A stretch of 64,000 nt of DNA from Streptomyces lonarensis (GTDB taxonomy: Bacteria; Actinomycetota; Actinomycetes; Streptomycetales; Streptomycetaceae). Under the pieces are notes generated by a model. That model was given only the letters and a program-made list of their open reading frames with translations, had not been told where the DNA came from and searched no databases. The stretch lies in contig NZ_JAAVJD010000004.1 in assembly GCF_012033735.1 (NCBI RefSeq), positions 1-64,000 of the forward strand, given 5' to 3'. The translations under genes were made by a program, and so were the position numbers. Below are positions 19,582-60,178 of this stretch, one piece after another (within the stretch, counting starts at the first letter, position 1; every line of letters starts with the position of its first letter).

Positions 19582-19656
<75 letters not shown>

Positions 19657-36798: not shown

Positions 36799-38004
36799 TC
36801 AGCCGATGGCCCGGATCGCCTCGCGGAGGTCGTCGGCGGCCGTCCCCCCGCGGAATCGCGGCGCGGCGAGAAGTGCCCCGACGCGGGCGGCGCGCTTCCC
36901 GATCCAGGAGATCTGCGCGTCCTCCGGCAGGGTGAGGATCGGCGCCATCGCCGCGGTGGCCCCTTCGACGTCGCCCTGCTGGACCCGGGCGGTCGCCACG
37001 TACACGTGGGCGAGCCGCTCGTCGTCGAGCGATCGCTCCCCGGCGGGCATGGCCTGCCACTGGGTGATCGCTGCGCCGGCCTCCCGCTCAGCCCGCGCGG
37101 CGTCACCCTGTCCGCCCGGCCAGATGAGACTGGACCCGGCGTAGTAGGCGCGCTTCGTCGGGCTGAAGGCGAAGAGCCCGGCCACCGAATCCGGGACCAC
37201 CGCCGCGTCGTGCGCGCGCTCCGCCAGGTCCAGCGTCGCGTGCGTTCCCGGCGAGTCGCCCAGGTTCGCGAGGCACTGCGCCCGACCCGACAGCAGCCGC
37301 GCCATGCCCGTCCCCGGGACGCCCGGGCCGCCCCGCCCGATGCCGTCCTCCACGAAGTCCAGCGCCGCCTCGTAGTCCCCGGCGAACCGGCTGATGAGCG
37401 ACTGGGTGCCGCGGACCCACAGCAGCAGCTCCAGGTCCCCGGCGAGCTGCGCGCACCGGCCTGCCGCGTAGGCGTGCTCGTGCGCGGCGTCCGCGTCTCC
37501 GAGGTCCAGCGCGGCGTAGGCCAGTACGCCGGACAGGCGGCCGACGGTCACCAGCAGGTCGCCGCGCTCGCCCGGCCCGTGCCGGTGATCCCGCAGCCGC
37601 TCCAGCCCGACGTCCCGCAGTGCGTGGGCGCGCTGCAGCATCGGCGCGGGCGGCGATGACAGGTAGTCGACGGCGGTTTCCGCGGCGCCGGAGGCGAGGT
37701 CGTCCAGCTCCAGCTCGGCGAGTGCCGCGAGGTCCCGGGACGCCGCGAGGGACGCGGCGAGGGTGCGGCGGGTCCGGGCGTCGGCCTGCCGCACGGCATC
37801 CTCCCGCTCCTGCGCGGCGACGAGAGAGCCGCCGGCCCCGAGTGCGGCGTCCGCCACGGCTGCGAACTCCGGGCTGGGAGCCCGGCGGCCGGCCTCCAGG
37901 TGCGCGATGTGGGACCGGTCCCAGTGGGTGAGGTCCGCGAGCTGGCCGTAGGAGTAGCCGGCGGTCCGGCGGTGGTGGCGGAGGAGATCGGAGAAGGCCG
38001 TCAT
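36799..38004 (-). CDS. XRE regulator with TPR-like C-terminal domain
   Basis: A 401-residue protein. The N-terminal HTH is FSDLLRHHRRTAGYSYGQLADLTHWDRSHIAHLEAGRR. The remaining 320 residues are helical repeats of the TPR/NsdA type (LLVTVGRLSGVLAYAALDLGDADAAHEHAYAAGRCAQL..., ARLLSGRAQCLANLGDSPGTHATLDLAERA). Many Streptomyces regulators with this layout respond to peptide or small-molecule signals. It is leftward, at the edge of the transfer-like module, so it could be the module's repressor, analogous to KorSA of pSAM2. ATG 38004. Confidence 0.88.
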   Translation of the reverse strand: MTAFSDLLRHHRRTAGYSYGQLADLTHWDRSHIAHLEAGRRAPSPEFAAVADAALGAGGSLVAAQEREDAVRQADARTRRTLAASLAASRDLAALAELELDDLASGAAETAVDYLSSPPAPMLQRAHALRDVGLERLRDHRHGPGERGDLLVTVGRLSGVLAYAALDLGDADAAHEHAYAAGRCAQLAGDLELLLWVRGTQSLISRFAGDYEAALDFVEDGIGRGGPGVPGTGMARLLSGRAQCLANLGDSPGTHATLDLAERAHDAAVVPDSVAGLFAFSPTKRAYYAGSSLIWPGGQGDAARAEREAGAAITQWQAMPAGERSLDDERLAHVYVATARVQQGDVEGATAAMAPILTLPEDAQISWIGKRAARVGALLAAPRFRGGTAADDLREAIRAIG

Positions 38005-38660: not shown

Positions 38661-38945
38661 ATGGCTGCGCAGAACTCTACCCTCCACCTGTTGGACGCGC
38701 TGTCCGACGGTGACGCCGCGACCGCCTCGCCCCGTGCGGCGGCGCGGCGGGAGCTGACGGTCGCCGAGGCGAACGCCACCTACCGCGCCGAGCTCGTCAC
38801 CGAGTTCGTGACCGCGACCGACTGGGCCGACGAGCTGCGGCTCCTCGCCGACGCCACCCGCTACGACCAGGCGAACCCCGACGAGGACAGCCTCTTCGAC
38901 GAGCTCAACGCCACCCGCATCGGCGACCTGGCGGTGGCGGCATGA
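38661..38945 (+). CDS. Hypothetical phage protein
   Basis: A 94-residue acidic protein from ATG 38661 with GGAAGGAAC upstream. It is helical (ELTVAEANATYRAELVTEFVTATDWADELRLL). It opens the rightward operon that leads to the transfer-like genes. No family was recognised. Confidence 0.72.
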   Translation: MAAQNSTLHLLDALSDGDAATASPRAAARRELTVAEANATYRAELVTEFVTATDWADELRLLADATRYDQANPDEDSLFDELNATRIGDLAVAA

Positions 38946-39397
38946 GGACCCTCACCCCCACCACCGCCGAGCGGGAGTTCCTCGCCACCTGCGAGGCGGC
39001 GCCGCTGCCCGAGATCACCGGCCCGATCCTCGCGCAGGTCCTGCGCCTGCCGGTCCTCCCCGGCGAGGACATCGTCACCATCCTGGGTGCCGCCCACGGG
39101 CTGCTGTCCGAGGCGGGCGTCATCCGGTCCCGTCGCACCCCGCCGCCCGCCGGTGGTATCGAGCCGTTCGACGCGATCCGCGAGGCCGTCACCGGCCGCA
39201 TGCAGGTCGACGAGGCGGCCGACTGGCGGCTGGAGGACGCGGCGGAGATCGCTCTCGACGCCGCCGTCGCCGACCTCGGGCAGCCCGGTGAGGACTTCGG
39301 CGACTACGTCCGTCGGATCGACGTGTCCGACGCGGACGTCCTGCGGGCGTTCGTGACCGCCGGGCGGATCGCCCTGGAGTACGGGGGCGAGTCGTGA
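38942..39397 (+). CDS. Hypothetical phage protein
   Basis: A 151-residue acidic protein. The first 60 residues look like a small helical domain (LPEITGPILAQVLRLPVLPGEDIVTILGAAHGLLSEAGVI), the rest is rich in Asp/Glu. It overlaps its neighbours by 4 nt. No family was recognised. Confidence 0.7.
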   Translation: MRTLTPTTAEREFLATCEAAPLPEITGPILAQVLRLPVLPGEDIVTILGAAHGLLSEAGVIRSRRTPPPAGGIEPFDAIREAVTGRMQVDEAADWRLEDAAEIALDAAVADLGQPGEDFGDYVRRIDVSDADVLRAFVTAGRIALEYGGES

Positions 39398-39582
39398 GCG
39401 GGCGCCCGACGACCGCGGAGCGGCGGCAGATCGCCGCCGAGATGCTGATCGAGGCCGGGTACGACTGGGAGGCCCCCGGGGACGCGGTCGACAAAGCGTG
39501 CGAGCTCGCCGGCCTCCCCCGGCCGGAGTCGACCGCGGACCGCATGCCGATCTGGGACCTCCTGCCGGTGGACCCCGAGTGA
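39394..39582 (+). CDS. Small hypothetical protein
   Basis: A 62-residue protein from GTG 39394 (VSGRPTTAERRQIAAEMLIEAGYDWE). It overlaps both neighbours by 4 nt. It shares with the next protein a short AGYD/AGYGPD-like helix end, so the pair may be duplicates. Confidence 0.6.
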   Translation: MSGRPTTAERRQIAAEMLIEAGYDWEAPGDAVDKACELAGLPRPESTADRMPIWDLLPVDPE

Positions 39583-39776
39583 GCGCCGCCGGCGCCCAGG
39601 AGATCGCGGTGGCGATCCTCTGGGCGGGCTACGGCCCCGACGGTGTCGACCAGCTCAGCCCCAAGGCCTTCGAGGGCCTCCTCGAGGCTCTCGCCGACCG
39701 GGAGTGGATCGCGCCGGCCGACGGTGTCGACCGCGACGCGGTCCGGGCCGCGATGCGCAAGCAGGTCGCCGCGTGA
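39579..39776 (+). CDS. Small hypothetical protein
   Basis: A 65-residue protein from GTG 39579 (VSAAGAQEIAVAILWAGYGPD...AVRAAMRKQVAA). Helical, no recognised family, 4-nt overlaps on both sides. Confidence 0.6.
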   Translation: MSAAGAQEIAVAILWAGYGPDGVDQLSPKAFEGLLEALADREWIAPADGVDRDAVRAAMRKQVAA

Positions 39777-39937
39777 GCCCCACGACCGTCGACATCGACG
39801 GCGCCGAGGTCGAGGTCATCGGCCGCGGCGGGGGCGACGCCTCCCGCTGCCCGGTCCGGCTCGACCTGCCCTGCCCCGCCGGATGCGGCTGGTACGGCCC
39901 CGCCGGTACCGCCCACATCTGCACCGTCAGCAACTGA
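39773..39937 (+). CDS. Small cysteine-containing protein
   Basis: A 54-residue protein from GTG 39773. SRCPVRLDLPCPAGCGWYGPAGTAHIC has four cysteines and a histidine and may bind zinc. It overlaps the previous gene by 4 nt and is followed by a short hairpin (39961-39984). Confidence 0.6.
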   Translation: MSPTTVDIDGAEVEVIGRGGGDASRCPVRLDLPCPAGCGWYGPAGTAHICTVSN

Positions 39938-39960
39938 CCCACCCCGCCGCCGGCCTCCAC

Positions 39961-39984
39961 CGCCCGGGCCCGTCACCCCGGGCG
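39961..39984. terminator. Short GC-rich intercistronic hairpin
   Basis: CGCCCGGG (39961-39968) pairs with CCCGGGCG (39977-39984). It separates the small-gene cluster from the membrane-protein/translocase cluster. Confidence 0.5.
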
Positions 39985-40021
39985 GCGGAGGACCGGCCAC
40001 CAACCGCCCCTGGAGGGCCCC

Positions 40022-40486
40022 GTGACCACTCCCGCTCTGCCCGCCTTCCCCGAGTCGTCCCGGCTCCGTCGCCTGCCCGGCTCAGTCCTGACGTGGCTGC
40101 GGACGCAGCCCGTATCGGTCGGCACCGCGACCGCGGTGCCGACGGCTGGGACGGCGTCGCTGCACGGCAGCCCCGGCGAGGTGTTGGTCGCGGTGTTCGC
40201 CGCATTCGGCGCCGCCTGGCTCGCCTCCGGCCTGGTCACCCGCATGACCTCGCCGCAGCCGGCCGAGGAGGTCGCCGAGCTCACCGAGGCCCTCGTCCGG
40301 GTCGCAGCCTGCGCATCGAGCGGCCGGGCGGGCGAGGCACTCGTCGCCCTACGGGAGGAGGAGACCGTCCTGATGGTCGGGGACCTCCTGGAGGTGCTGG
40401 CGGACTACCTGCCACACCAGGCCCCGGCGCTGCTGGACGCCGCCGACCGCGTCAACGCCGCCGCCCACAACCTCGACACCCCCTGA
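40022..40486 (+). CDS. Membrane-associated protein of the transfer-like module
   Basis: A 154-residue protein from GTG 40022. A hydrophobic helix (GEVLVAVFAAFGAAWLASGLV) follows a basic N-terminus; the C-terminal half is helical and acidic (EEVAELTEALVRVAACASS...LMVGDLLEVLADYL). It begins the cluster that leads to the DUF2637 and FtsK-like genes. It may be a spread-type (Spd) protein; that is inferred from context. Confidence 0.68.
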   Translation: MTTPALPAFPESSRLRRLPGSVLTWLRTQPVSVGTATAVPTAGTASLHGSPGEVLVAVFAAFGAAWLASGLVTRMTSPQPAEEVAELTEALVRVAACASSGRAGEALVALREEETVLMVGDLLEVLADYLPHQAPALLDAADRVNAAAHNLDTP

Positions 40487-40497
40487 TGGAGGCCCCG

Positions 40498-40755
40498 ATG
40501 ACCCGCCCCGACCCCACCGCCGTGGTCGCGGCCTTAGCGGCCCAGCTGCGGGGCGTGCACCCGCTGATGCTCGCCCCCGTCGCCTGCCTGTACCTGCTGA
40601 TCATCACCCTCTACGCGGTCGGCGCGCTGGCCGTCCTCGCCGCCGCCGCGGTGACCGCCGGCGCCACCGTCACCGCCATGTGCCTGACCCAGGCACTGTC
40701 CCTCGCCGCCACCTGGCGGCCCACGCCCCGCACGAAGAAGGAGGTCACGCGGTGA
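40498..40755 (+). CDS. Small membrane protein (Spd-like)
   Basis: An 85-residue protein from ATG 40498 (TGGAGG upstream); ATG 40486, overlapping the previous stop, is an alternative. Two hydrophobic helices, HPLMLAPVACLYLLIITLYAVGALAVLAAAAV and AGATVTAMCLTQALSLAA, are followed by a basic tail. It overlaps the DUF2637 gene by 4 nt. Confidence 0.7.
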   Translation: MTRPDPTAVVAALAAQLRGVHPLMLAPVACLYLLIITLYAVGALAVLAAAAVTAGATVTAMCLTQALSLAATWRPTPRTKKEVTR

Positions 40756-41981
40756 CCACGTTCGCTGAGCCCGAGACCGAGCCGCAGCACGACATGGCCG
40801 CCTACGCCCTGGCCGCCGCTGAGGCCGATGCGATCCGCACGGCCGCTGAGGCCGAGGCCGAGGCCAAGCGGATCAAGGCCGCCGAGGAAGCCCGCCGGCA
40901 GGCCATCGCGAATGACCGGGCCGAGCTGAAGCTCCAGCAGGAGCGGGCCCGCCACGAGGAGGTCCAGGCCGAGCGCGCCCGGAAGCGGGCCGCGGAGGAG
41001 AAGGCCCGCGCCGCCGAGGCGAAGGCCGCCGCCGCGGAGGCAGAGGCCGGGGCCGCGCAGGAGCAGCGGGTCGGCAAGTCCGCCACCCGGTGGCGCCGGA
41101 CCGCGATGGCCTTCTACGTCCTGTGCGCCGCAGTGGCCCTGCCGCTGCAGATCAGCTTCTTCTACACGCCGGAGCGTCCGTACCTGGCGCTGGCACCGGT
41201 ACTGATCGAGGTGTCCGCGCTGGTGCTCCTGATCGGTGCCGCCGCCGCGGTGACCGCCGGTCGGGCGCACTGGCACTACCGGCTGATCGCCTGGGGCTGC
41301 GCCTTCGTGGCCGCCGCGATCAACATCACGCACGGGCTGGACGCCTTCGACACCGCGACCGCGATCGGTACCGCGCTGGCGTCGGTCGCCGGTCCCGGAG
41401 TGTGGGACCTTCACGAGCACGGCCGCATCGCCCGCAAGGAGGGTCGTCGCACGCTCCGGCAGCGCGCCGCGGACCGCCGTGCGGCGAAGCGGGCCGCTGC
41501 GGAGAAGGCCGCCGCCGAGGTGGCGGCCGCTGCCGAGAAGGCCGCCCGCGACGCCGAGGTGGCGGCCCGTGTCGAAGCCCTCGCGAAGCAGCGCGCCGAG
41601 CTGTATCCGGAGGTGTGGGCGCACGCCCTGCGACTGGCCGCGGCGCTCGGGCAGGAGGCCGTCACCGAGGAGGTGTGGCGGCAGGCCCACGTCAACGTCG
41701 AGGGCGCCGAGCCGGGTGAGGACGCGGGCACGCTGCGGACCCGGAACGCGGCCGCGCGGCGCGTGATGGCGGCCCGCTCGGAGGCCCCCGGTGAGCGCCC
41801 CGTGAAGATCACGAACGCGCAGGTCGTCCCGCAAATCCCCCGGGGTCCGCGACAGGGCACCGGAAGGGGCGCCAGGGGTGGCCCGCCGGTCCGTGGAGTC
41901 CGCCGCAAGGGGGACACCGCTCCCTACTCCACCGGAGCCCGCAAGGCCGCCTCGGAGACCGCCAAGAAGGCGGCCTCCTGA
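40752..41981 (+). CDS. DUF2637/SpdB-like membrane protein
   Basis: A 409-residue protein. The N-terminal 110 residues are a highly charged coiled coil (AEAEAEAKRIKAAEEARRQAIANDRAELKLQQ). Four transmembrane helices of the DUF2637 type follow (AMAFYVLCAAVALPLQISFF, LALAPVLIEVSALVLLIGAAAAV, LIAWGCAFVAAAINITHGLDAF, ATAIGTALASVAGPG). A second coiled coil and a basic disordered tail end it. DUF2637 occurs in Spd proteins of Streptomyces conjugative plasmids and AICEs, which spread DNA through the mycelium with TraB. GTG 40752. Confidence 0.85.
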   Translation: MTTFAEPETEPQHDMAAYALAAAEADAIRTAAEAEAEAKRIKAAEEARRQAIANDRAELKLQQERARHEEVQAERARKRAAEEKARAAEAKAAAAEAEAGAAQEQRVGKSATRWRRTAMAFYVLCAAVALPLQISFFYTPERPYLALAPVLIEVSALVLLIGAAAAVTAGRAHWHYRLIAWGCAFVAAAINITHGLDAFDTATAIGTALASVAGPGVWDLHEHGRIARKEGRRTLRQRAADRRAAKRAAAEKAAAEVAAAAEKAARDAEVAARVEALAKQRAELYPEVWAHALRLAAALGQEAVTEEVWRQAHVNVEGAEPGEDAGTLRTRNAAARRVMAARSEAPGERPVKITNAQVVPQIPRGPRQGTGRGARGGPPVRGVRRKGDTAPYSTGARKAASETAKKAAS

Positions 41982-42166
41982 TGGCCGCGAAGAGCGCCCG
42001 CGCGTGGGCCCCGCCGACCCTGATCCTCGCCTGCCCCGCCGCCGTGCTGTGCCTCCTGCTCATCCCCGGGCAGCACGGCTGGCGGGCCGCCCTCCTCGCC
42101 GCCGGCCTCGTCCTCGCCGCCGCCCTCGCTGCCCCGCCCGTCGCGAAGCTCACCCGCAAGCTCTGA
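41981..42166 (+). CDS. Small two-helix membrane protein
   Basis: A 61-residue protein, ATG 41981, overlapping the previous stop by one base. Two hydrophobic helices (PTLILACPAAVLCLLLIP and AALLAAGLVLAAALAAPP) end in a basic tail. It lies directly before the translocase gene and could be an accessory membrane component. Confidence 0.68.
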   Translation: MAAKSARAWAPPTLILACPAAVLCLLLIPGQHGWRAALLAAGLVLAAALAAPPVAKLTRKL

Positions 42167-42184
42167 CCCTCCTGGAGTGCTGCC

Positions 42185-44338
42185 ATGTCTCAGGCCACCG
42201 CCACCGCCGACGTCATCGACCTCACCGACCGGCTTGCGAAGCGCGGCGCACCCGCCGCCGCCCGGGCCGCCGTTCAGGCCACCGAGGCCGGTGCGGCAGA
42301 CGCCCAGACCGGGACGCTTGTCGTCGAGCGGCCCACTCGGAGCCTCGGGCAGCGGGCGCTCCCCGCCTGGGCCGTGGTCCGCACCTCCGCCATCGGCTTC
42401 ATCGCGCTCGGGCAGAAGGTCTGGGACTACCAGCAGGGCGGCGAGTGGGCCCGGCAGATCCACCGGGCCCGCCTCCTGGAGGCCCGCGGCGAGATCGACG
42501 AGACCGAGGGTGAGGCCCTGGTCGTCCAGTTCCGTGCCGACCGGCGCGAGGCGCGGTACGAGCGGCACCGGGAGCCCGCCACGATCCTCGGCGCGTCCGG
42601 TGCGACGTCCTACGTGGCACTGCTGCTGGGAGTCGCCGCCCTGTGGGGCGCGATCGGCGCCGGCATCGTCCTCGCCCCGCTGTGGGGAGTGCTTTACGTC
42701 GCCGGCCGCCGGGAGCTCGCCGACCGGGAAGAGCGCGCCGCGATCCCGGGCCAGGGCGTCGAGGCGGTTGAGGCGGCCCCGGCCCCGTCCGGGGAGCCGG
42801 AGTTCCGCCTCGGGATGACGGTGGAGATCTTCGAGGACATGGTCCGCCGCGCGCTGACCGAGGACCTGAAGGTTGCACTGACCTCACTTCAGGCCGCGCC
42901 GCACGAGTGGGGCTTCGAGATCGACGTCGTGCTCTCCCGCATGACGCCCGAGACGATCAGCAGGGGCCTGGACCTGCTGGAAGCCTGCCTGCCGGGAGTG
43001 CGTACCGGATCGATCCTCATGCAGCAGTCCATGGCGGCCCGAAACCGGTGCGTGATCCGCGTGCCGGGCCCGAACCCCTGGCGCGCGGTGCCCCCGCTGC
43101 CCGCCAGGGCCCCGAAGTCGCTGAGCGTCGCCGAGGTCGGTGGGGCGCTGATCGGCGCGGACATGTCCGCCCGTCCGCTGGCCCTGCCGGTGCACCGCAC
43201 CAACATCAACGTCGTCGGGAAGTCTCGCTCGGGGAAGTCGACGCTGCTGCGGGCGCTGCTGGACGCGATCACCGCCACCCGCGATCAGATCGTCATCGGT
43301 GTCGACCTGGGGTCCGCTGGCTCCGGGTTCGGCGGTCTCCGGCGCGGCATGCACGCCGTCGCCACCACCGCGGAGGACGCGAGCCTCGTTCTGCGGTGGG
43401 CGCTCGACGTCGGCAAGGGCCGACCCGCACTGTTCGACCAGCTTGGCATGGGCGAGAACTGGCAGTCGAGCGAGAAGCGGCCCGGCGTCACGATCGTCGT
43501 GGACGAGTTCCCCGCGCTGGTCAGGGAGTCACGGAAGGGCTACACCGACGAGGAGACCGGTCGCACCACGTCCTGGGATCTGGACGGGATGCTTGCGGAG
43601 CTGGCCATCACCAGCGCCAAGTCCGACGTCACGATCGTCATTGCCGGCCAGGGCGTTACCCGCGAGAAGATCAAGGACAACACCTGGGTGGTGGAGCTGC
43701 CGGTGCAGGTCATGGCCGCGTGTGACGCCGACGACGTCAAGCAGATCATGGGCGGCGGCGCCATGGCTCAGGGCTGGCGCCCCGACCGCCTCATGCCCGC
43801 CATGGGCGAGGCCCTCAACGACGCCTCGGTGGTGTACGTCATGGCTGGCGCGCAGTACGCCGAGCCGATCCCGTACCGGGCCTGCTACGCGCCGGACGAG
43901 GAGCTGATCCGCCGCGGCACCGAGCGTGCCGAAGCTGGCCTCGTCGACATCGACACGGAGTCCGCCGCGCTGTCGGAGACGTCGATGGACGTGATCCTCT
44001 CGATCGGTCAGCGCCGCGCCGCACGCGGTGTAAGCGGGTTGACCGTCCCGGCGCTGATCCTCGCGATCCGCCGTCTGTTCGCGGCCGCGGGGGACCCGGC
44101 GGGCATGTCCCGGGAGGAGCTGGCGGAGGCCCTGGCCGGGGAAGACCCGGCGCGGTGGGCCCTTGCTCAGCACGCCGACGAGGCCGCCCGCGCCGATGCC
44201 CTTCGCGACGCGATTGCCGACGCGCTGGCACCCGAGGGCAAGGCGTGGCCGCTGGAGAAGTACCGCAAGGACACCCCGCGCGGCTACCGCCTCCGGGACC
44301 TCCGCGCCCTCGTCGGCGAGCACGTAGACGGCTCCTGA
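42185..44338 (+). CDS. FtsK/SpoIIIE-type DNA translocase (TraB/TraSA-like)
   Basis: A 717-residue motor protein. Hydrophobic segments near residues 65-75 and 140-173 (SYVALLLGVAALWGAIGAGIVLAPLWGVLYVA) should anchor it. The RecA-like motor has Walker A VGKSRSGKSTLLRAL (about 345-355) and Walker B GVTIVVDEFPAL (about 437-448). The C-terminus (PEGKAWPLEKYRKDTPRGYRLRDLRALV) could be a small DNA-binding winged helix like that of TraB. In Streptomyces, such proteins pump double-stranded DNA between hyphae after binding repeats at clt; a repeat array follows this gene directly. Confidence 0.92.
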   Translation: MSQATATADVIDLTDRLAKRGAPAAARAAVQATEAGAADAQTGTLVVERPTRSLGQRALPAWAVVRTSAIGFIALGQKVWDYQQGGEWARQIHRARLLEARGEIDETEGEALVVQFRADRREARYERHREPATILGASGATSYVALLLGVAALWGAIGAGIVLAPLWGVLYVAGRRELADREERAAIPGQGVEAVEAAPAPSGEPEFRLGMTVEIFEDMVRRALTEDLKVALTSLQAAPHEWGFEIDVVLSRMTPETISRGLDLLEACLPGVRTGSILMQQSMAARNRCVIRVPGPNPWRAVPPLPARAPKSLSVAEVGGALIGADMSARPLALPVHRTNINVVGKSRSGKSTLLRALLDAITATRDQIVIGVDLGSAGSGFGGLRRGMHAVATTAEDASLVLRWALDVGKGRPALFDQLGMGENWQSSEKRPGVTIVVDEFPALVRESRKGYTDEETGRTTSWDLDGMLAELAITSAKSDVTIVIAGQGVTREKIKDNTWVVELPVQVMAACDADDVKQIMGGGAMAQGWRPDRLMPAMGEALNDASVVYVMAGAQYAEPIPYRACYAPDEELIRRGTERAEAGLVDIDTESAALSETSMDVILSIGQRRAARGVSGLTVPALILAIRRLFAAAGDPAGMSREELAEALAGEDPARWALAQHADEAARADALRDAIADALAPEGKAWPLEKYRKDTPRGYRLRDLRALVGEHVDGS

Positions 44339-44344
44339 CGCCCC

Positions 44345-44501
44345 GGAACCCCTGTGGAACCGCAGGTCAGCGGACCGGAACTCTCACGGAACCGCCCGGA
44401 ACCGGCCCCGGTGACAGGAACTCGGTTCCGGCCCGCGCCCCGGGTTCCGGCCCGGTTCCGCCGCCCTGGCCTGCGGTTCCATCCGGCCCGAAGCCGGTTC
44501 C
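44345..44501. promoter_or_regulatory. Phased GGAAC/GTTCC array, candidate clt transfer locus
   Basis: GGAAC starts at 44345, 44356, 44377, 44388, 44398 and 44417. GTTCC starts at 44425, 44444, 44455, 44476 and 44497. The extended consensus is about CGGAACCG. Neighbouring sites, apart from the central pair, are 10-11 or 19-21 bp apart, so they face one side of the helix, with six sites in one direction and five in the other about a centre near 44423. The segment is a 200-bp non-coding gap in a tightly packed operon, directly after the translocase gene. This is the place and design of TraB-recognition repeats. Confidence 0.8.
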
Positions 44502-44540
44502 GGCCTCCCATACCACCACATACCGCCACCGGAGATGACC

Positions 44541-45023
44541 ATGGATCACCTGACGCCCAGCTACCAGATCCACCGCCCCGACCGCCCGGAGACCGCCCGT
44601 CAGGGCGTCGTCGTGCCGACCCCTGCGGCGAGCGACTCGATCGTCTACGTGCCCGGCCCCGGAGGGCTCGTCGGGGTGCCGAGATCGTCGCTGCCGCCGG
44701 AGTTCTTCGACTACACGCCGACCGCGGTCGACCCGGCGCCGGCCCCCCGTCAGGGCATCGACCCGCGGGCCCAGGTACTCGTCGCGGGCGGCGTCGGAAT
44801 CGGCGCGGCCGGCTGGGGCCTTGGGCAGCTCGTCACCGCCGTCGCCGGGATCGGAGCGGCCGGGCTGCTGGCGATCGCCCTCGCGATCCTCGCGCTCCGG
44901 ATGCCCCGCCCCGGAACCGCCCCGGCGACCGACCAGCCCGCCCCCGCCGGTTCTCCCGGTAGCGGCACCACCGTCCACATCCACCGCGGCGGCCGAGTCA
45001 AGGCACGCCACATCCACCTCTGA
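44541..45023 (+). CDS. Membrane protein downstream of the translocase
   Basis: A 160-residue protein from ATG 44541 (GGAG seven bases upstream). The N-terminal half is soluble (IVYVPGPGGLVGVPRSSLPPEFFDYTPT), then two hydrophobic helices (AQVLVAGGVGIGAAGWGLGQLV and VAGIGAAGLLAIALAILAL), then a short VHIHRGGRVKARHIHL tail. Small proteins with this layout follow traSA in Streptomyces elements; the Spd-like role is inferred. Confidence 0.72.
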   Translation: MDHLTPSYQIHRPDRPETARQGVVVPTPAASDSIVYVPGPGGLVGVPRSSLPPEFFDYTPTAVDPAPAPRQGIDPRAQVLVAGGVGIGAAGWGLGQLVTAVAGIGAAGLLAIALAILALRMPRPGTAPATDQPAPAGSPGSGTTVHIHRGGRVKARHIHL

Positions 45024-45032
45024 GGAGACAGC

Positions 45033-45587
45033 ATGATCCCCTGGATGCACCTCCGCGACCGCCGCACCTGGCGGGGCGCGACCCCCGAGACGGTCGGTCC
45101 GCTGATGGCCCGCTGGCTGGAGGGCGACCTCCGGTCCCGGCCCGGCTACGAGCCGCGGTGCGGCCCGGACCCCGAGAGCGGCCCGCTGGTGCCGACCCTG
45201 GCGCGGATGTGCCGCGCCGGTCTCGTCACCGTCACCTCCCAGCCGGGCGAGGACGCCCCCGGCTGGACGCAGCGGTCCGGCGTCGAAGCCGTCGCCGTCG
45301 ACAAGGCGGCCGCGGGCCGGCTTGCCAAGGCCGCCCGCCGCGAAGGGCTGCTCGTCGACCCGCGCGGCGGTGAGGTCGTCAGCCTCCAGGACGGGAAGCC
45401 GTTCACCCGCTTCGGGGCGCCGCGCGGCCTGGCGAGCCGCGAGATCGAGTGGCACGGGCTCGCCCCTGCGACCGTCGCCCGGATGGCCGACCTGCCCATC
45501 CTGACCATCATCGCTCCCGAGTGGGGGCCGGACGGCGACCGCATGTGGGGCGTCATCGACCGCGCGCTCGCAGGGGTGGCGGCATGA
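45033..45587 (+). CDS. DUF6919-like protein
   Basis: A 184-residue protein from ATG 45033. It has WRGATPETVGPLMARWLEGDLRSRPGYEPRCGPDPESG at the N-terminus and two-layer alpha/beta character after that. It resembles a Streptomyces family I recall as DUF6919, often encoded beside mobile-element transfer genes. Function is unknown. Its stop overlaps the next start. Confidence 0.65.
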   Translation: MIPWMHLRDRRTWRGATPETVGPLMARWLEGDLRSRPGYEPRCGPDPESGPLVPTLARMCRAGLVTVTSQPGEDAPGWTQRSGVEAVAVDKAAAGRLAKAARREGLLVDPRGGEVVSLQDGKPFTRFGAPRGLASREIEWHGLAPATVARMADLPILTIIAPEWGPDGDRMWGVIDRALAGVAA

Positions 45588-46336
45588 GCGACCAGGCGAA
45601 GTCGGTCCGGATCTCCGGTCCCGGCATGGGGCGGGCCATCACCGTCGCCGGCGCCCCGGTCCGCTGCCCCGGCTCCGGGGTCGGCGGCGCGGCCACCGGC
45701 CTGACGCTCATCGTCACCGGCGCGACCGTGCGGGCCACCTGCGGCGGGAAGCACGGCGGCGTCAAGTGCTGGTGGAAGGCGGACCAGTTCGCCGCCGCCG
45801 ACGTGGCGGCGCTCGCCACCCGCAGCGGCCGGGTGAAGGCCAGGGTGCGTGGCGGCGAGTTGGAGGCGTCCGTTGCGCGGGCGGCGAAGCCCGGCGGGAT
45901 GTTCGGGCGGCTCCTCGGGGCCCGGGCGGCGGCCGCAGCGGCCCCGGCTGCGGCCCCTGCCGCCCGGTCGGCCCCGGCGCGCGGTTCCGGTGGGACGGGC
46001 GCTGCGGCGTTCGGGGCGCTGGCGGCGATCGCCTCCGCGGCGGGTCAAGTCGCTGGCGCCACCGGGCAGGTCGCCGGGGCCACGGCCTCCATCGCCAGCT
46101 CCGGCGCCGCCGTCACCAGAGACGGCATCGGGCTCGCCCGCCGCGGAATGGACGTGGTCGACGACCACGCCGCGAGGCGGTTCACGGCCCTCAACCCGCC
46201 CCCGGCGGCGCCCGCGACCCCGGCCAAGCCGGTGAAGAAGACGGCGCCGGTCAAGCCGTCCGCCAGGAAGAAGACGGCCCCGAAGAAGGCCGCGCCAGCC
46301 AAGAAGGCCGCACCGAAGAAGGAGGCGAAGCCGTGA
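45584..46336 (+). CDS. Lys/Ala/Pro-tailed hypothetical protein
   Basis: A 250-residue protein. The N-terminus has a small domain with PVRCPGSGVGGAATGLTLIVTGATVRATCGG...KCWWKADQF. A Gly/Ala-rich weakly hydrophobic middle (GAAAFGALAAIASAAGQVAGATGQVAGATASIAS) follows. It ends in a histone-like tail rich in KKTAPKKAAPAKK. The basic tail may bind DNA. It is possibly a nucleoid-like accessory of transfer, by position only. Confidence 0.65.
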   Translation: MSDQAKSVRISGPGMGRAITVAGAPVRCPGSGVGGAATGLTLIVTGATVRATCGGKHGGVKCWWKADQFAAADVAALATRSGRVKARVRGGELEASVARAAKPGGMFGRLLGARAAAAAAPAAAPAARSAPARGSGGTGAAAFGALAAIASAAGQVAGATGQVAGATASIASSGAAVTRDGIGLARRGMDVVDDHAARRFTALNPPPAAPATPAKPVKKTAPVKPSARKKTAPKKAAPAKKAAPKKEAKP

Positions 46337-46527
46337 GCTTCAAGGGCGGCGAGCGAGTGCGGATCGTGCGGTGCGAGGACGACCCGCGGGCCGTCGGGCG
46401 GGAGGGAGTCGTCCTGGACCAGGTCCCGCCGGGGCCGCTCACCGGCGGCCGGTGGACGGTGTCGATCGGAGCGCTGCTCATCCGGGACCCGCTGTGCCAC
46501 ACGTCGGAGCTGCAGCGGATCGGCTGA
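46333..46527 (+). CDS. Small beta-barrel-like protein
   Basis: A 64-residue protein from GTG 46333, overlapping the previous stop by 4 nt. SFKGGERVRIVRCEDDPRAVGREGVVLDQ resembles an SH3/KOW-like small barrel. It is the last gene before a terminator. Confidence 0.65.
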   Translation: MSFKGGERVRIVRCEDDPRAVGREGVVLDQVPPGPLTGGRWTVSIGALLIRDPLCHTSELQRIG

Positions 46528-49052: not shown

Positions 49053-49514
49053 ATGGGTAGTCGGGGTCCTCTCAAGATCCCCAAACACCTCCAGGCCGTC
49101 CCCGAGCCGGGGGCGACCGCCGCTGGCTCGATGGCCGAACGCGTCGCCCCGTCCGCCCCCGATCGGCCGCCCGGCTTCCCGGTCGACGACCGGGAGATGT
49201 GCGAGCTGTGGGACGCGATGGTCCCCGAGCTCGATCGGGCTGGCCTCCTCACCCGAGCGGACGGCCCGACCGTCGAGCTCGCCCTGCGCCACTTCCTCGC
49301 CGCCCGGCAGGCCGGCAACGCCCTGCAGGAAGGGGAGGTCGTGGTGGGCGACGCGGCGCACGGCCACTCCGTGAAGAAGAACCCGGCCGGCGCCGAGATG
49401 CGCAGCCAGTCGCAGCTGTTCCTGGAGTACGCCAAGCAGTTGGGCATGTCGTTCGCGGCCCGAGCGCGGATGCCGGCCGCGGACGAGGCGGCGGAGGCGA
49501 ACCCCTTCGCCTGA
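49053..49514 (+). CDS. Terminase small subunit (P27 family)
   Basis: A 153-residue protein that recognises phage DNA for packaging. GSRGPLKIPKHLQAVPEPG, APDRPPGFPVDDREMCELWDAMVPELDRAGLLTRADGPTVELALRHFLAARQA and KKNPAGAEMRSQSQLFLEYAKQLGMSFAARARM are the blocks of the P27-type family. ATG 49053 follows GGGAGG. It directly precedes the large subunit. Confidence 0.92.
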   Translation: MGSRGPLKIPKHLQAVPEPGATAAGSMAERVAPSAPDRPPGFPVDDREMCELWDAMVPELDRAGLLTRADGPTVELALRHFLAARQAGNALQEGEVVVGDAAHGHSVKKNPAGAEMRSQSQLFLEYAKQLGMSFAARARMPAADEAAEANPFA

Positions 49515-49525
49515 GGGGGTGAGCT

Positions 49526-51250
49526 GTGCCGGTCAAGGTGCCCGGGAAGCGGGAGCTGGCCCGGCTCAAGCTCAGCCCCGAGGTGGCGTGGTACTTGCTG
49601 GACCGCGGGTACGAGCTGCCGGACTGCCCGCCTCGCTGGAAGACGCCGGAGCCGCGCGAGGTCGCCGGCGCCTACTTCGACCCGGCGCGCGTCGACCGGG
49701 TGATCGACGCCTTCGGTCGGCTCCGGCACACGCAGGGGAAGTGGGCGGGGCGCCCGATCACGCTGCGAGCGTGGCAGGTTGCCCACCTGATCGGCCCCAC
49801 CTATGGCTGGGTGCGGCCGACTGCTGACGGCCGCACCGCTCGCATCATCCAGACCCAGTACCTCGACATCCCGCGGAAGAACGCCAAGACCACCATCGGC
49901 GGCGGGCAGTGCATCTACCTCACCTGCGCTGACGGGGAGCAGGGCGCGCAGGTCTTCGCGCTGGCGACCCGGAAGGATCAGGCGCGCCTGTGCTTCGACC
50001 CGGTGCGGCTGCTGGCGCTGCATGCCCCGGATCTCAAGGGGCACGTCAAGCCACTGAAGGACAAGATCCTCCACCCCCGGAGCGGCTCGAGCTTCAGCGT
50101 GATGTCGTCGGCTGGCGACGCGATGCACGGCACCTCGCCGCATGCTGCGTTCGTCGACGAGGTGCACCTGCACAAGACCCGCGACCTGATCGAGGCAGTC
50201 GAGACCGGCACTGGCGCGCGCGAGCAGCCGCTCATCATGTATGCCACCACGGCTGACGCAGGCTCGCCCTTCTCTCCCTACGCGGAGATCCGGGAGTACA
50301 CGGAGAAGCTCTGCCGCGGCGTACTCGTCGACCCGACCTTCTACGGCGTCGTTTTTGCTGCGGAGCGGGAGGATGACCCCTTCGACCCGGCAACGTGGCT
50401 GAAGGCCAACCCGGGCCTGGCTGCCGGCGACAGCCCGACGATGGAGTCGATGGAGAAGGCCGCGGCGAAGGCCCGGCAGAACCCCGTCGAACTCGCCTCC
50501 TTCCTCCGGCTGCGGCTGGGGGTGCGCACCCGCCAGGAGACGAAGTACATCAGCCTGGAGGAGTGGGACCGCAACGCCGGCATGGGCGTCGACCCCAAGA
50601 CACTGAAGGGCCGCGCGTGCTTTGGCGGCCTGGACCTCGCCGCGACGAGCGACCTGTCCGCGCTGTGCCTCCTCTTTCCCGAGGAGGAGGGCGGCTATCA
50701 GGCGCTGTGGCGGCTGTGGACGCCCGAGGCGAACATGCAGCGACTCCGGGACCGTACCGCCGGCGCCGCCGACGTGTGGGTTCGCGACGGCTGGCTGACC
50801 GTCACCGACGGCGACGTCATGGACTACGGCCACATCCGGGCCGCGGTCCAGGCCGACATGGACTACTTCGACCTGCGGGAGATCGCCTACGACCCGTGGA
50901 ACGCCACGCAGCTCGTGACCGACCTGCTGGCGGATGGGGTGCCGCTGGCGGAGATGCGGCAGGGCTACCGGAGTATGTCGCCCCCACTGAAGGAGCTGGC
51001 TCGCCTCGTCCGCCAGGGCTCCCCGAAGCGGCCGATGGTGCGGCACGGCGGGAACCCCGCGATGCGCTGGCAGGTGGACAACCTGGCGGTGGCCACCGAC
51101 CCGTCGGACAACGTCAAGCCCGACAAGCGGCACTCCGCCGACAAGATCGACGGCGTCGTCGCCCTGATCATGGCGCTCGACCGGGCGGTCCACGGGGCCC
51201 CTGCCGAGGCGCCGTCCGCCTACGAAGACCGTGGACTGGAGGTCGTGTGA
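49526..51250 (+). CDS. Terminase large subunit
   Basis: A 574-residue packaging motor with ATPase and nuclease domains. The Walker A variant is DIPRKNAKTTIGGG, Walker B with catalytic Glu is AAFVDEVHLH, and the coupling motif region is MYATTADAGS. The C-terminal nuclease shows GGLDLAATSDLSALCLL and EIAYDPWNATQL with the final acidic residue near HSADKIDGVVALIMALDRA. It belongs to the HK97-type Terminase_1 family, fitting cos packaging. GTG 49526. Confidence 0.95.
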   Translation: MPVKVPGKRELARLKLSPEVAWYLLDRGYELPDCPPRWKTPEPREVAGAYFDPARVDRVIDAFGRLRHTQGKWAGRPITLRAWQVAHLIGPTYGWVRPTADGRTARIIQTQYLDIPRKNAKTTIGGGQCIYLTCADGEQGAQVFALATRKDQARLCFDPVRLLALHAPDLKGHVKPLKDKILHPRSGSSFSVMSSAGDAMHGTSPHAAFVDEVHLHKTRDLIEAVETGTGAREQPLIMYATTADAGSPFSPYAEIREYTEKLCRGVLVDPTFYGVVFAAEREDDPFDPATWLKANPGLAAGDSPTMESMEKAAAKARQNPVELASFLRLRLGVRTRQETKYISLEEWDRNAGMGVDPKTLKGRACFGGLDLAATSDLSALCLLFPEEEGGYQALWRLWTPEANMQRLRDRTAGAADVWVRDGWLTVTDGDVMDYGHIRAAVQADMDYFDLREIAYDPWNATQLVTDLLADGVPLAEMRQGYRSMSPPLKELARLVRQGSPKRPMVRHGGNPAMRWQVDNLAVATDPSDNVKPDKRHSADKIDGVVALIMALDRAVHGAPAEAPSAYEDRGLEVV

Positions 51251-51525
51251 TCGTCGTCCTCTCCGTGGCCCTCGGGGTCCTGGTCGTCACCGCGCTGGCG
51301 CTGGCCTGGCTCGTCGTCGCCGAGGCGCGAGTCGCCGTGAAGCGCCGCGTGGTCGTCGCACTCGTCGACGGCACCGGCATCGACGGGGTCCTCCTGAGGC
51401 GCCACCGCACCCTGCTGGTCCTCGCCGACGCGACGATCCTCTCGACGGACTCGGAGCCCACCCGAGCGGACGGCCAGCTCGTGATCGAGCGGTCCCGCGT
51501 CCTCTACGTGCAGGACGTGAGGTGA
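51247..51525 (+). CDS. Small membrane-anchored head-region protein
   Basis: A 92-residue protein between terminase and portal genes, overlapping the terminase stop by 4 nt. One N-terminal transmembrane helix (VIVVLSVALGVLVVTALALAWLVV) precedes a small beta-rich domain (DGVLLRRHRTLLVLADATILS). Equivalent small genes in this spot occur in related siphoviruses; the role is unknown. Confidence 0.75.
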   Translation: MIVVLSVALGVLVVTALALAWLVVAEARVAVKRRVVVALVDGTGIDGVLLRRHRTLLVLADATILSTDSEPTRADGQLVIERSRVLYVQDVR

Positions 51526-51529
51526 CATC

Positions 51530-52876
51530 ATGGTCTGGGCAGTGAGTGCCGGACAGCTCGCACGGATCGACCGCCGGCCGACCGCGATGGCGCCACCGGA
51601 GGTCCGCCTCGCCGACGGCGTGGCCATGTCCTACTCCGCCATCTACCGCTCGCAGCCGCACGTGCGGACCGTCATCGACTTCCTCGGCCGCAACATCGCC
51701 CAGCTGGGCCTGCATGTCTACCGCCGGGTGTCGGACACCGACCGCGAGCGCCTCGCCGACCACCCGCTGGCCCGCCTGCTGTCGCGACCGAACCCCGCGA
51801 CGACCCGCTACCGCCTGATCAACGCGCTCGTCCAGGACATCGCGACCTACGACATGGCGGTCCTGGCCCGGATCAGGCCTGAGGACGCAGGCAACGACAT
51901 CGGAGGCCTGGTGCGGCTCCCGCCTTCCCGGGTGCGCCTCGTCGACGGCGACTGGATGGAGCCCGGTGCGTTCGAGGTAACGGGGAGAGCGGGGAAGTTC
52001 ATCGTCCCCCGGGACCGGGCCGTGTACCTGCGGGGCTACAACCCGGACGGGGACCGCGACGGCCTTTCGCCGATGGAGACCCTGCGCGGGACTCTGGCGG
52101 AGGGCTACAGCTCCCAGCAGTACCGAGAGCAGCTGTGGCGCAACGGGGCTCGAATGGCGGGCTGGATTAGCCGCCCGGCGGAGGCTCGTGCCTGGTCGGA
52201 CAAGGCCCGCGAGCGGTTCCGTGCCGACTGGCGCGGCCTGTACACCGGCACCGGGACCGCAGCTGGCGGGACTCCGATCCTTGAGGACGGCATGGAGTGG
52301 CACGCCGGCGGCATGACGCCGGAGCAGGCCCAGTACCTGGAGACACGCAAGCTGACCCGCGAGGAGGTCGCCGCCGCCTACCACATCCCGCTGCCCATGG
52401 TCGGGATCCTGGACCACGCCACCTTCAGCAACATCAGGGAGCAGCACCGGCAGCTGTACCAGGACACCCTGGGGCCGTGGCTGGTTTGGCTTGCGGAGGA
52501 GATCGAACTGCAGATCCTGTCCGACCTTCCGGACAGCGAGGGCGTCTACTGCGAGTTCAACATCGCGGCGAAGATGGCCGGCTCCTTCGAGGAGCAGGCC
52601 GCGGCGATGTCGACGATGGTCGGCGGCCCAGTGATGACGCGGAACGAGGGCCGCGCGCGGGTGAACCTGCCGCGGCTCGACGGCGGCGACGAGCTGATCG
52701 TCCCGCTGAACGTCACAGAGGGTGGGCAGGCGAGCCCCCGGGACTCCGCTCCGCCATCGGTGGAGCCGTCGGAGTCTGCTCCCCGGGAGGCGTCGGCGGT
52801 GGTGCGGGGAAAACGGCAACCCGGGCCGGACCCGTCCGCGCGGACGAGTACGAGGCCCGGTATGAAGCGGCTCTGA
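51530..52876 (+). CDS. HK97-family portal protein
   Basis: A 448-residue portal, the dodecameric ring through which DNA enters the head. Family features include VRTVIDFLGRNIAQLGLHVYRRVSDTDRERLADHPLARLLSRPNP, MAVLARIRPEDAG, FIVPRDRAVYLRGYNPDGDRDGLSPMETLRGTL and EEVAAAYHIPLPMVGILDHATFSNIREQHRQLYQDTLGPWLVWLAEEIE. The last 50 residues are disordered. Near the end, G GGA AAA at 52807-52813 in frame is a -1 slippery heptamer that would lead into the downstream frame. ATG 51530. Confidence 0.95.
   Translation: MVWAVSAGQLARIDRRPTAMAPPEVRLADGVAMSYSAIYRSQPHVRTVIDFLGRNIAQLGLHVYRRVSDTDRERLADHPLARLLSRPNPATTRYRLINALVQDIATYDMAVLARIRPEDAGNDIGGLVRLPPSRVRLVDGDWMEPGAFEVTGRAGKFIVPRDRAVYLRGYNPDGDRDGLSPMETLRGTLAEGYSSQQYREQLWRNGARMAGWISRPAEARAWSDKARERFRADWRGLYTGTGTAAGGTPILEDGMEWHAGGMTPEQAQYLETRKLTREEVAAAYHIPLPMVGILDHATFSNIREQHRQLYQDTLGPWLVWLAEEIELQILSDLPDSEGVYCEFNIAAKMAGSFEEQAAAMSTMVGGPVMTRNEGRARVNLPRLDGGDELIVPLNVTEGGQASPRDSAPPSVEPSESAPREASAVVRGKRQPGPDPSARTSTRPGMKRL
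52807..52813 (+). promoter_or_regulatory. Candidate -1 ribosomal slippery site GGGAAAA
   Basis: In portal frame the codons are CGG GGA AAA CGG, which fit X XXY YYZ exactly. Slipping back one base keeps full pairing (GGG, AAA) and enters the MuF-like frame. Runs of four A are rare in DNA of this composition. Confidence 0.7.
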
Positions 52877-53538
52877 ACCGGTGGTTCGCCGACTTCGAGC
52901 GGGGCTTGCTCGCGGGCCACGAGGCGAAGGCGACGCGGGCTCGTCTCAAGTCCGCGGCCGACTGGGTCGATCGCGACGAGTGGCAGGCATCGCTGGCCGC
53001 GCTGCTGCTGCAGCTCGGGCTCGCCACGTCCACTGCGGCTGCGGTCGCACTGCTGGAACAGCTCGGGTTCCCGCCGGAGGACTACAACGGGGCGGCGACG
53101 GTCGCGTGGCTGACGGCCGCGGCCGAGGGGATGGCCGAGGGGATCGTCGGCGCGACGCTCGCCGAGGTCGATGAGGCTCTCGCGGAGCCGGACCCGGTCG
53201 ATGAGGACGGGCAGTCGATGGCGCCTGCTGCGGTGATCGCCGCCGCGCTGGCTACGGCCCGCGCGGTGCGGTCCTCGGAGATCGCGGAGAGCAGCGTCAC
53301 CGCGATGTCCGGCTTTGGCCAGACGGAGGCGGCGAGGGGTGCGGTCGGCACGGAGGGCGTCACGAAGACCTGGCTCACCAGGTCGCCGAACCCCCGCGCC
53401 AGCCACCGGCGGATGAGCGGCCAGACCGTCGGCCTGGACGACACCTTCAGCAATGGGGCCCGCTGGCCCGGCGACTCCTCTCTGCGCGACTCGGAGCGGG
53501 CGCGCTGCAAGTGCGCCCTGGAAATCACAGTCGAGTAG
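52813..53538 (+). CDS. MuF-like extension, probably reached by -1 frameshift from portal
   Basis: An open frame, -1 relative to the portal, overlaps its 3' end and runs to TAG at 53538. From the slip site it encodes about 241 residues (TATRAGPVRADEYEARYEAALNRWF...GARWPGDSSLRDSERARCKCALEITVE). The ending ARCKCALEI is typical of phage minor-head (MuF/SPP1 gp7-like) proteins. I find no ATG or GTG in this frame between 52660 and 52920, nor a ribosome site. With G GGA AAA at 52807-52813, the simplest reading is a portal-MuF fusion of about 669 residues made by frameshifting. A TTG or CTG start is the alternative. Confidence 0.75.
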   Translation, partial: TATRAGPVRADEYEARYEAALNRWFADFERGLLAGHEAKATRARLKSAADWVDRDEWQASLAALLLQLGLATSTAAAVALLEQLGFPPEDYNGAATVAWLTAAAEGMAEGIVGATLAEVDEALAEPDPVDEDGQSMAPAAVIAAALATARAVRSSEIAESSVTAMSGFGQTEAARGAVGTEGVTKTWLTRSPNPRASHRRMSGQTVGLDDTFSNGARWPGDSSLRDSERARCKCALEITVE

Positions 53539-53548
53539 GGGGTGAACC

Positions 53549-56166: not shown

Positions 56167-56525
56167 TGGCGTACCTGAACCCCGACAAGGGAGCACTCAG
56201 GGAAGCGGGCCTCTCCGAGGTCGGCGGCGGCCAGGGAGGTGAACCGCCCGCGGGGTCGGTCGGCACCGAGCAGCTCGCGGACGGGGCGGTGACGGCGGCG
56301 AAGCTCGCCTCCGGCGCGGTCCCGTCCGGGGCCGCCGCCGGAACGCCGTCTCTGCGCGCTCTCGGCACGTCCGCCACGCAGGCCGCCGCGGGGAACCACA
56401 CCCACGCGGGTCTGCTCGCCGGCAGCGCATCTGCTGTCGCGAACGCGACCGACGAAGCGTCGGCCGTGACGCAGCTGAACGCCCTACTGGCCGTGCTGCG
56501 GACTCGGGGGGTGATCTCCACGTGA
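56166..56525 (+). CDS. Head fiber/decoration-like protein
   Basis: A 119-residue protein directly after the capsid gene. GSVGTEQLADGAVTAAKLASGAV and PSLRALGTSATQAAAGNHTHAG are repeats typical of phage head-fiber and fiber-base proteins. It probably decorates the capsid surface. ATG 56166 overlaps the capsid stop. Confidence 0.82.
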   Translation: MAYLNPDKGALREAGLSEVGGGQGGEPPAGSVGTEQLADGAVTAAKLASGAVPSGAAAGTPSLRALGTSATQAAAGNHTHAGLLAGSASAVANATDEASAVTQLNALLAVLRTRGVIST

Positions 56526-57837: not shown

Positions 57838-57840
57838 CCT

Positions 57841-58511: not shown

Positions 58512-58526
58512 AGAGGAGACGCCGCG

Positions 58527-59216: not shown

Positions 59217-59233
59217 GCCGCCGGCCCACAGAC

Positions 59234-59269: not shown

Positions 59270-59298
59270 TCCCATGCCCAGACCGCGCAAGGAGCGGC

Positions 59299-60164: not shown

Positions 60165-60178
60165 GAGAGGAGGGGGCG

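Follow-up and report, generated by a model that had tools for sequence, protein, structure and literature searches.

The 64,000-nucleotide window analyzed here, the start of contig NZ_JAAVJD010000004.1 of Streptomyces lonarensis, contains much of a 54-kb element that reads as one temperate siphovirus prophage. Placed between its early and replication genes and its late, capsid genes is a transfer module (38661-46527) with a gene for an FtsK/TraB-type double-stranded DNA translocase, a gene for a DUF2637-like membrane partner ahead of it, and a repeat array behind it (Table 1). Our comparisons indicated that the module is of the theta-plasmid type, as in pFP1 and pRVR1, and not that of an actinomycete integrative and conjugative element (AICE), and that the array, which is present and co-varies with the translocase, is a probable candidate for a cis-acting transfer locus (clt). 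On a narrow balance of probability, we propose that this prophage moves its own double-stranded DNA circle between hyphae, by a non-lytic route.

The element is flanked by two identical tRNA-Pro copies (19571-19656 and contig 73697-73782), with tRNA-Pro(ggg) itself at 19582-19656 in the left-hand copy. The first-pass annotation of the window had proposed a single element bounded by this tRNA and its integrase gene, and the search for a right attachment site (attR) beyond position 64,000 bore this out: a second full tRNA-Pro, within an exact 86-bp repeat, lies there, and the contig ends at 75,900. Virion genes were also located, among them the terminase, portal, capsid, and tape measure genes that it had named, with starts at 49053 (TerS), 49526 (TerL), 51530 (portal), 53549 (protease), 54853 (HK97 capsid), 58527 (tail tube), and 60179 (tape measure). 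Beyond the window are an endolysin gene (contig 66735-67706) and, past the tail genes, a second tyrosine recombinase gene, int2 (contig 69262-70329). This gene set looks complete for one temperate siphovirus prophage (integrase, attachment sites, terminase, portal, HK97 capsid, tail, and lysis).

The translocase and the array behind its gene

The reading frame of the translocase gene is intact, and the Walker A (GKSRSGKS at residue 345) and Walker B (IVVDE at 437) motifs of its product are preserved. The protein matched the FtsK/SpoIIIE-like family of PHROG (E = 7e-38) and scored 23.7 bits against Pfam FtsK_SpoIIIE (cut-off, 24), with 25.0 bits in the genome search. In the predicted structure (mean predicted local distance difference test score, 78), residues 201-607 aligned with the FtsK motor at Z 29.5 (root mean square deviation, 2.8; 342 residues) and the conjugation protein TcpA aligned at Z 23, in agreement with the initial reading of this gene as an FtsK/TraB-type translocase. 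A possible transmembrane hairpin at residues 134-173 falls in a low-confidence part of the model. A Protein Data Bank profile search with the translocase alignment returned weak P-loop matches only, and a fold search of a viral library returned FtsK-like matches, mostly nameless. For the C-terminal domain, Pfam gave nothing reliable, and a profile comparison with the C-terminus of the pFP1 protein gave no match.

The membrane partner encoded at 40752-41981 is not reached by Pfam DUF2637, yet the profile built from it matches plasmid proteins annotated as DUF2637 by NCBI, so that its earlier description as DUF2637-like holds. Its Ala/Glu-rich flanks look like coiled coil.

A clt-like array, which the first-pass annotation had mentioned without coordinates, could be placed in the 202-bp gap directly 3' of the translocase gene, at 44339-44540. 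Its GGAAC copies run six forward and then five inverted. The 6-mer GGAACC occurs nine times there, compared with a shuffle mean of 3.7, and this count was reached in 0 of 200 shuffles; elsewhere on the contig, the best 200-bp stretch has two in the same inverted arrangement. The array also contains GCAGGTCA at 44362-44369 and, 105 bp further on, TGGCCTGC, which carries one mismatch, at 44467-44474.

Comparable arrays stand behind the translocase genes of relatives. An over-represented 6-mer (reached in 10 or fewer of 200 shuffles) was present in 58 of 61 such gaps, near copies included, and a stricter test for inverted half-arrays was passed by 57 of 72 gaps, again with near copies. Of 120 control gaps, drawn from the 253 available at these same loci, three passed, and one of the three adjoins the array of locus L075. 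The typical array consists of about ten class-specific 5- to 6-mers in two inverted half-sites at helical-turn spacing, and its word varies by class: GGAAC (here and in pRVR1-type plasmids), TGCTC, GTGAC, TGACA, TGCTA, or CTCTAC (pFP1). Among like-oriented repeats, 207 of 321 spacings lie within 1.25 bp of a multiple of 10.5 bp, where about 76 would be expected from an even spread; the spacings are inherited, so the 321 values are not independent.

An inverted pair, GCAGGTCA/TGACCTGC, with at most one mismatch in each site, was found in 57 of 59 dereplicated gaps (those of G226 and G042 are without it). Its start-to-start distance is 84/85 bp in 29 gaps, 95/96 bp in 15, 105/106 bp in 12, and 73 bp in one, so that three values, stepping by about one helical turn, account for 56 of the 57. 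In gaps with more than one GCAGGTCA-like pair, the distance nearest 84.5, 96, or 105.5 bp was taken; choosing the best-matching sites instead gave the same three distances nearly everywhere, with odd values at L079, L095, L096, L097, L103, and L105. The pair is constant across translocase classes. A constant factor, perhaps a host protein, may read it.

As a genome-wide detector, the pattern GCAGGTCA, 76-98 bases, TGACCTGC was rejected: it matched 121 of 392 genomes of the genus, and a backwards control also matched in many of the genomes listed. The S. lonarensis genome itself misses the exact pattern through one mismatch in the right-hand site. Among the matches listed, at least 149 loci have the exact pattern, and in at least 17 of them a translocase gene ends 26-63 bp upstream. 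The pattern alone led to more distant translocases at L127, L152, and L213, with the array words CGGGA at L127 and CGGAC at L213 and without a clear array at L152. Inspection of L103, L108, and L111 likewise showed no clear array. At L119 (NZ_CP108596.1) there is no gap behind the gene picked by the profile; the branch of this gene is very long, and the profile may have picked wrongly. Two other candidates for clt were discarded. The pSVH1 repeat, GACCCGGA, is not clustered, its three forward and two inverted copies being scattered over the element, and the array at 29540-29742 consists of iterons inside the replication initiator gene, ahead of the DnaB-like gene. These six palindromic repeats in the O-like initiator gene are the likely phage origin, of the lambda O type.

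Relatives of the module and inheritance of its parts

In a tree of 60 dereplicated translocases (13 near copies dropped from 73), the protein falls in a clade of ten (Shimodaira-Hasegawa-like approximate likelihood ratio test, 100) with the plasmids L010, L011, and L012 and the Streptomyces contigs L065-L070. Besides this phage, the GGAAC clade comprises plasmid records and contigs of unsettled nature; in the available flanks of L065-L071, no terminase of this phage's type was found. Six plasmid records carry translocases that are 50-65% identical over 71-73% of the length, and the translocase of the related prophage G386a is 50% identical to that of pFP1 over 57% of the length. A grouping of the FtsK-like protein with segregation proteins, which the first-pass annotation had named as a competing outcome, did not materialize. 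When host FtsK, EccC-type proteins, and pIJ101 Tra were added, the translocase stayed with the plasmid translocases; host FtsK and two EccC-type proteins lay on the opposite side of the deepest starred branch, and the EccC-type L285 and pIJ101 Tra on the module's side, with these outgroups being long branches whose host FtsK and EccC labels were assigned from length and score. Searching the translocase against host FtsK with blastp gave no match at E 10. An FtsK_gamma domain occurs in 2 of 32 alignment members (best E = 7e-20) and was not found in this translocase. Some GGAAC-class plasmid-type translocases (L010, L011, L066, and L068) have an N-terminal extension, and the alignment appears to place FtsK_gamma in those N-termini.

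The partner has a different affiliation. It groups with phage loci, in a clade with L102, L075, L083, and G380; a terminase is present at all of these but L075. When the array class was mapped over the 49 loci that combine both genes with a clear word, the translocase tree called for 9 changes and the partner tree for 21, compared with a mean of about 26 on both trees over 100 shuffles of the class (minima of 22 and 23, respectively). Both profiles were iterated from this phage's proteins, rows without a clear word were excluded from the counts, and some labels were set by hand (L073, L082, L083, L085, L087, and L090 as GTGAC; L112 as TGCTC; G226 as TGTGC; L213 as CGGAC). The partner gene adjoins the translocase gene on its 5' side as the array does on its 3' side, and closeness is therefore not a full explanation of 9 versus 21 changes. 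A site read by its own translocase would best explain the co-variation. By this evidence, partner genes are swapped but the array remains linked to its translocase class, and the module is a chimera, with a plasmid-type translocase and array behind a phage-type partner.

Our search of 392 genomes of the genus with the capsid protein (E 1e-60) returned nine genomes including that of S. lonarensis, with nine loci outside the latter, and 40 to 60 kb were read around each of these. In four of the nine (G226, G042, G386a, and G380), a homologue of the partner (33-54% identity) precedes a translocase, and the two lie at the same place as here, between a gene of the 36106 type and the terminase. The locus with the best capsid score, G370, has in this slot a gene for 580 amino acids beyond the reach of the profile, with the array pattern and nine TGCTA starting 47 bp behind it. 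A related phage, NZ_CP108596.1, is a 51.8-kb circular plasmid record with a DUF2637 gene and a terminase that is 55.6% identical. Relatives of the translocase at E 1e-10 were detected in 16 of 150 genomes of the genus, the present one included. Further relatives came from 35 viral-contig records and 17 species-genome loci, and 49 of these 52 have the partner, the other three being cut at a contig edge. A terminase or portal was identified in 19 of the 35 viral records (including L083, L085-L089, L115, and L106) and in none of 12, several of them short; the terminase profile search covered the viral records other than L092, L097, L105, and L109. More distant terminases, beyond this group's profile, lie downstream in L073, L074, L084, L098, L099, and L116. 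Since the terminases downstream vary, the module is shared by phages of more than one type.

In the phage collection, 90 records carry relatives of the translocase, 89 of them from Streptomyces; among the matches listed, these are about 26-29% identical and the genomes measure 120-134 kb. Three different partner proteins found no match in the 50,697 phage records, and the two large phages that were read have no gap behind the translocase gene.

Possible roles of the module and known systems

From the parts we infer an FtsK-type pump that is tethered at the membrane and has a loading site of its own. Following excision and circularization of the prophage, several translocase subunits would load on the array, while the translocase would be tethered at the membrane by its own hydrophobic hairpin together with the DUF2637-like partner. 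The pump would then drive the phage's double-stranded circle through a septum, or through a contact between hyphae, to reach a neighboring compartment or a recipient hypha. The model for this scheme is the TraB-clt system of plasmids, and the phage would gain a non-lytic route beside its virion.

The closest counterparts are the modules of theta-type plasmids (pFP1, NC_006912; pRVR1, NZ_AP018366; NZ_CP115453; and NZ_CP107912), which share the small genes, the DUF2637-type gene, the translocase, and a gap of about 200 bp with a dyad array. The GGAAC word is common to this phage and three of the plasmids read, namely, pRVR1, NZ_CP115453, and NZ_CP107912. Unlike in these plasmids, the module here lies inside a phage with a capsid, and its partner groups with phage loci. 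Where this phage encodes a hydrophobic protein of 61 amino acids, pRVR1 and NZ_CP115453 have an RRQRL zinc protein, by annotation, and the regulator is of the NsdA type here versus GntR in pFP1.

For pWTY27, PMC3583192 describes TraA as a 688-amino-acid translocase with two N-terminal transmembrane segments and its clt as the last 16 bp of traA plus 159 bp on the 3' side. This clt contains both direct and inverted repeats, is bound by TraA, and is required for transfer. Experimentally proven, it stands directly 3' of the translocase gene and matches the position of our array; it differs in its repeat, TGACACC, which is described as direct repeats. According to the same source, TraB of pSVH1 reads 8-bp repeats through a C-terminal winged helix (PMC3583192).

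The first-pass annotation had likened the module to the transfer systems of AICEs such as pSAM2 and plasmids such as pSVH1, and had considered that a phage able to spread in this way would be a hybrid of phage and conjugative element. On the first count, the transfer-type nature was upheld and the affiliation was revised, as the order of regulator, small genes, DUF2637-like gene, translocase, and 3' array is of the theta-plasmid kind. AICEs are defined by Int, Rep, and Tra (PMC3218068). Those such as pSAM2 resemble this element in tRNA integration, a tyrosine integrase, and an FtsK-type Tra; they differ in replication, where this element has an O-like initiator and DnaB instead of an AICE-type Rep, together with virion genes. 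No match to RepSA, RepAM, or Prim-Pol was found in a Pfam scan of called genes of at least 250 amino acids within 19765-48427, the 29251 gene being compared with PHROGs only, and ParA and ParB had no match among the scanned proteins except that the 27705 gene matched RepB weakly (E = 0.039).

On the second count, the phage and transfer gene sets are indeed combined, though the combination is not peculiar to this phage, as other Streptomyces prophages share it and pZL12 offers a precedent. The element pZL12 is reported to be a conjugative Streptomyces plasmid-phage whose transfer needs a major tra gene and two adjacent genes. Both pZL12 and the related pSLE1 are described as uniting phage and conjugative functions in one extrachromosomal element, in contrast to the present element, which is integrated in tRNA-Pro. 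Neither the translocase profile nor the partner profile matched anything in the first 50 of the 86 kb of pSLE1. Conjugative plasmid-phages (pZL12) and FtsK-like genes in actinophages are already known. Titles and abstract openings of open-licence literature yielded none on such a module in integrated Streptomyces prophages or on this array; what appears new, in that it was not found in this literature, is a plasmid module recurring in integrated siphoprophages and a helically phased, translocase-specific array with an invariant pair.

Several results weigh against transfer between hyphae as we propose it. Four of the nine related prophages (G116, G350, G108, and G386b) have no partner-translocase module at that place; the phage thus does not need it. 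Large Streptomyces phages carry a related translocase without partner or array, which indicates that FtsK-type proteins can serve phages otherwise. The C-terminal domain (598-717, modeled separately) is winged-helix-like only weakly (Z of 5.9 or lower), and similarity to the classic TraB family (pIJ101 and pSVH1) is weak: pIJ101 Tra reached 66.5 bits with filters off (bias, 14.7), nothing with default filters, and E 0.07 in blastp. Fifteen of the 72 gaps failed the strict array test, including seven of the ten GGAAC relatives (L010, L065, L066, L067, L068, L070, and L071), although this test, which sets one word against Markov shuffles, is conservative for GGAAC arrays, probably because the base composition of these relatives recreates the word. 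Regarding co-inheritance, the 21 changes on the partner tree fall below the shuffle minimum of 23, so that the partner too is somewhat associated with the array class, far less than the translocase is; the adjacency of array and translocase gene means that linkage explains part of the pattern, an effect that comparison with the partner removes incompletely.

A narrower use, in which the machine distributes phage DNA within one mycelium, across cross-walls or into spores, with no transfer between strains, is the strongest competitor, to which we give perhaps one chance in a handful. Every compartment of a lysogen or an infected hypha would then receive the phage. Streptomyces hyphae are divided by septa, and Spd genes on its plasmids serve to spread them through the mycelium. 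The FtsK motor and the membrane partner fit such a task, and the cis array beside the gene suggests that the substrate is the element's own DNA. However, the closest relatives are plasmid modules, and traB of pFP1 is reportedly functional in transfer between strains.

We consider it unlikely that the translocase instead serves the lytic cycle (DNA entry, concatemers, procapsid pumping, or host takeover), with the array as a loading or pause site. The large Streptomyces phages (Coruscant, Tomas, Karimac, and others) have a homologous motor, and the position of the module upstream of the terminase genes would suit this role. These phages differ, however, in that the partner proteins match nothing in the phage collection and the two read lack the 3' array gap. 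The absence of the module from four of nine close relatives also argues against such a role, as does the same gene order and array grammar on plasmids without an annotated terminase or capsid in the stretches read.

It is more improbable still that the array is an operator, a terminator, or another transcription or RNA element and not a translocase site. The genes on either side of it run in one direction, and RNA of 44339-44540 folds better than shuffles do (z of -3.7; 0 of 200). Complementarity across the dyad, however, covers 22 of 24 motif positions versus 16 of 55 other positions in this array, and this concentration indicates a DNA motif rather than an RNA stem; we therefore do not favor a hairpin. 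Each array also has one word, the word follows the translocase clade, and the spacing follows the helical turn.

An AICE or plasmid nested in the prophage, suggested by the two tyrosine recombinase genes, was rejected as scarcely credible, because the arm-like and 86-bp repeats were found at the two outer ends only, the module occupies the same place in other prophages, and int2, rather than forming the second integrase/attachment pair between transfer and morphogenesis genes that the first-pass annotation had raised, lies beyond the tail genes and seems resident, with homologues (40%) at the far end of G226 and G380.

Gene spread by phages and gene spread by conjugative elements are generally regarded as distinct routes. 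The prophage described here combines a full set of capsid genes with a plasmid transfer module whose cis site appears matched to its own pump, and other Streptomyces prophages show this combination with different terminases. The array can be viewed as a readable code, in which the word goes with the translocase class, and this makes recognition, cross-mobilization, and virion-free spread testable. More tentatively, and with the balance tipping against it, many Streptomyces temperate siphophages may be dual-mode, producing virions and also transferring by way of clt, and the translocase-array classes that they have in common with plasmids might allow phages and plasmids of one class to mobilize each other's DNA. 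If so, the absence of the partner from the phage records would reflect phages that seldom need plaques.

Regulators and other genes of the element

A regulator gene diverges from the module. As in pFP1, a GntR-UTRA gene was present upstream and on the other strand at six of the nine phage or viral-contig loci compared; two of the nine have a NUDIX gene there and one has a fusion of a helix-turn-helix (HTH) domain with deformylase. This fusion, of HTH_31 with peptide deformylase, belongs to prophage G386a (L048 16777-18270). The NUDIX genes are at 4862-5500 in L082 and 4650-5276 in L102, both viral contigs, with a weak HTH match in L082 only. The transfer-immunity factor Pif of pSAM2, which blocks redundant transfer, is a NUDIX protein. 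By analogy, the L082 and L102 genes could be transfer-immunity genes.

The several small membrane proteins proposed at the outset were recovered as products with hydrophobic segments, called by a hydropathy script, from the genes starting at 40022, 40498, 41981, and 44541. A methyltransferase gene lies between the DnaB-like helicase gene and the module interval. The LacI-type HTH match within the first tyrosine recombinase raises the possibility of a self-regulating integrase.

Table 1. Features of the prophage, with positions in the window (strand given as + or -; a point where none applies)
Feature	Position	Strand	Remark
attL, tRNA-Pro(ggg) with 11 bp upstream	19571-19656	+	Exact 86-bp copy at contig 73697-73782
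Arm-type-like 21-bp repeat	19725-19745	.	Second copy at contig 73554-73574; each just inside an element end
Tyrosine integrase 1, 512 aa	19765-21303	-	LacI-type HTH match at residues 313-354
RecE-like exonuclease and RecT annealing protein, phage early genes	24009-25705	+	
O-like replication initiator (weak PHROG matches)	29251-30099	+	Six palindromic iterons within the gene, 29540-29742
DnaB-like helicase	30099-31424	+	
NsdA-type HTH regulator	36799-38004	-	Divergent from module; GntR-UTRA there in pFP1 and several relatives
Small genes ahead of module	38661-40755	+	Two with a hydrophobic segment (40022-40486, 40498-40755)
DUF2637-like membrane partner, 409 aa	40752-41981	+	Two hydrophobic segments called
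61-aa protein	41981-42166	+	Two hydrophobic segments
FtsK/TraB-type double-stranded DNA translocase, 717 aa	42185-44338	+	Motor about 201-607; C-terminal domain about 600-717
clt-like array, 202 bp, non-coding	44339-44540	.	Directly 3' of translocase gene; 11 GGAAC/GTTCC
160-aa protein after the array	44541-45023	+	One hydrophobic segment; similar-sized protein with such segments in the G226 and G042 slot
DUF6919 protein and two hypothetical genes	45033-46527	+	End of the 38661-46527 interval
Terminase, portal, protease, HK97 capsid, connector, tail tube, tape measure	49053-62485	+	

The tRNA-Pro(ggg) gene resembles an accretion site, as the relatives G004, G006, and G011 have extra copies of it, either full or of 43 bp from the 3' end, in one region.

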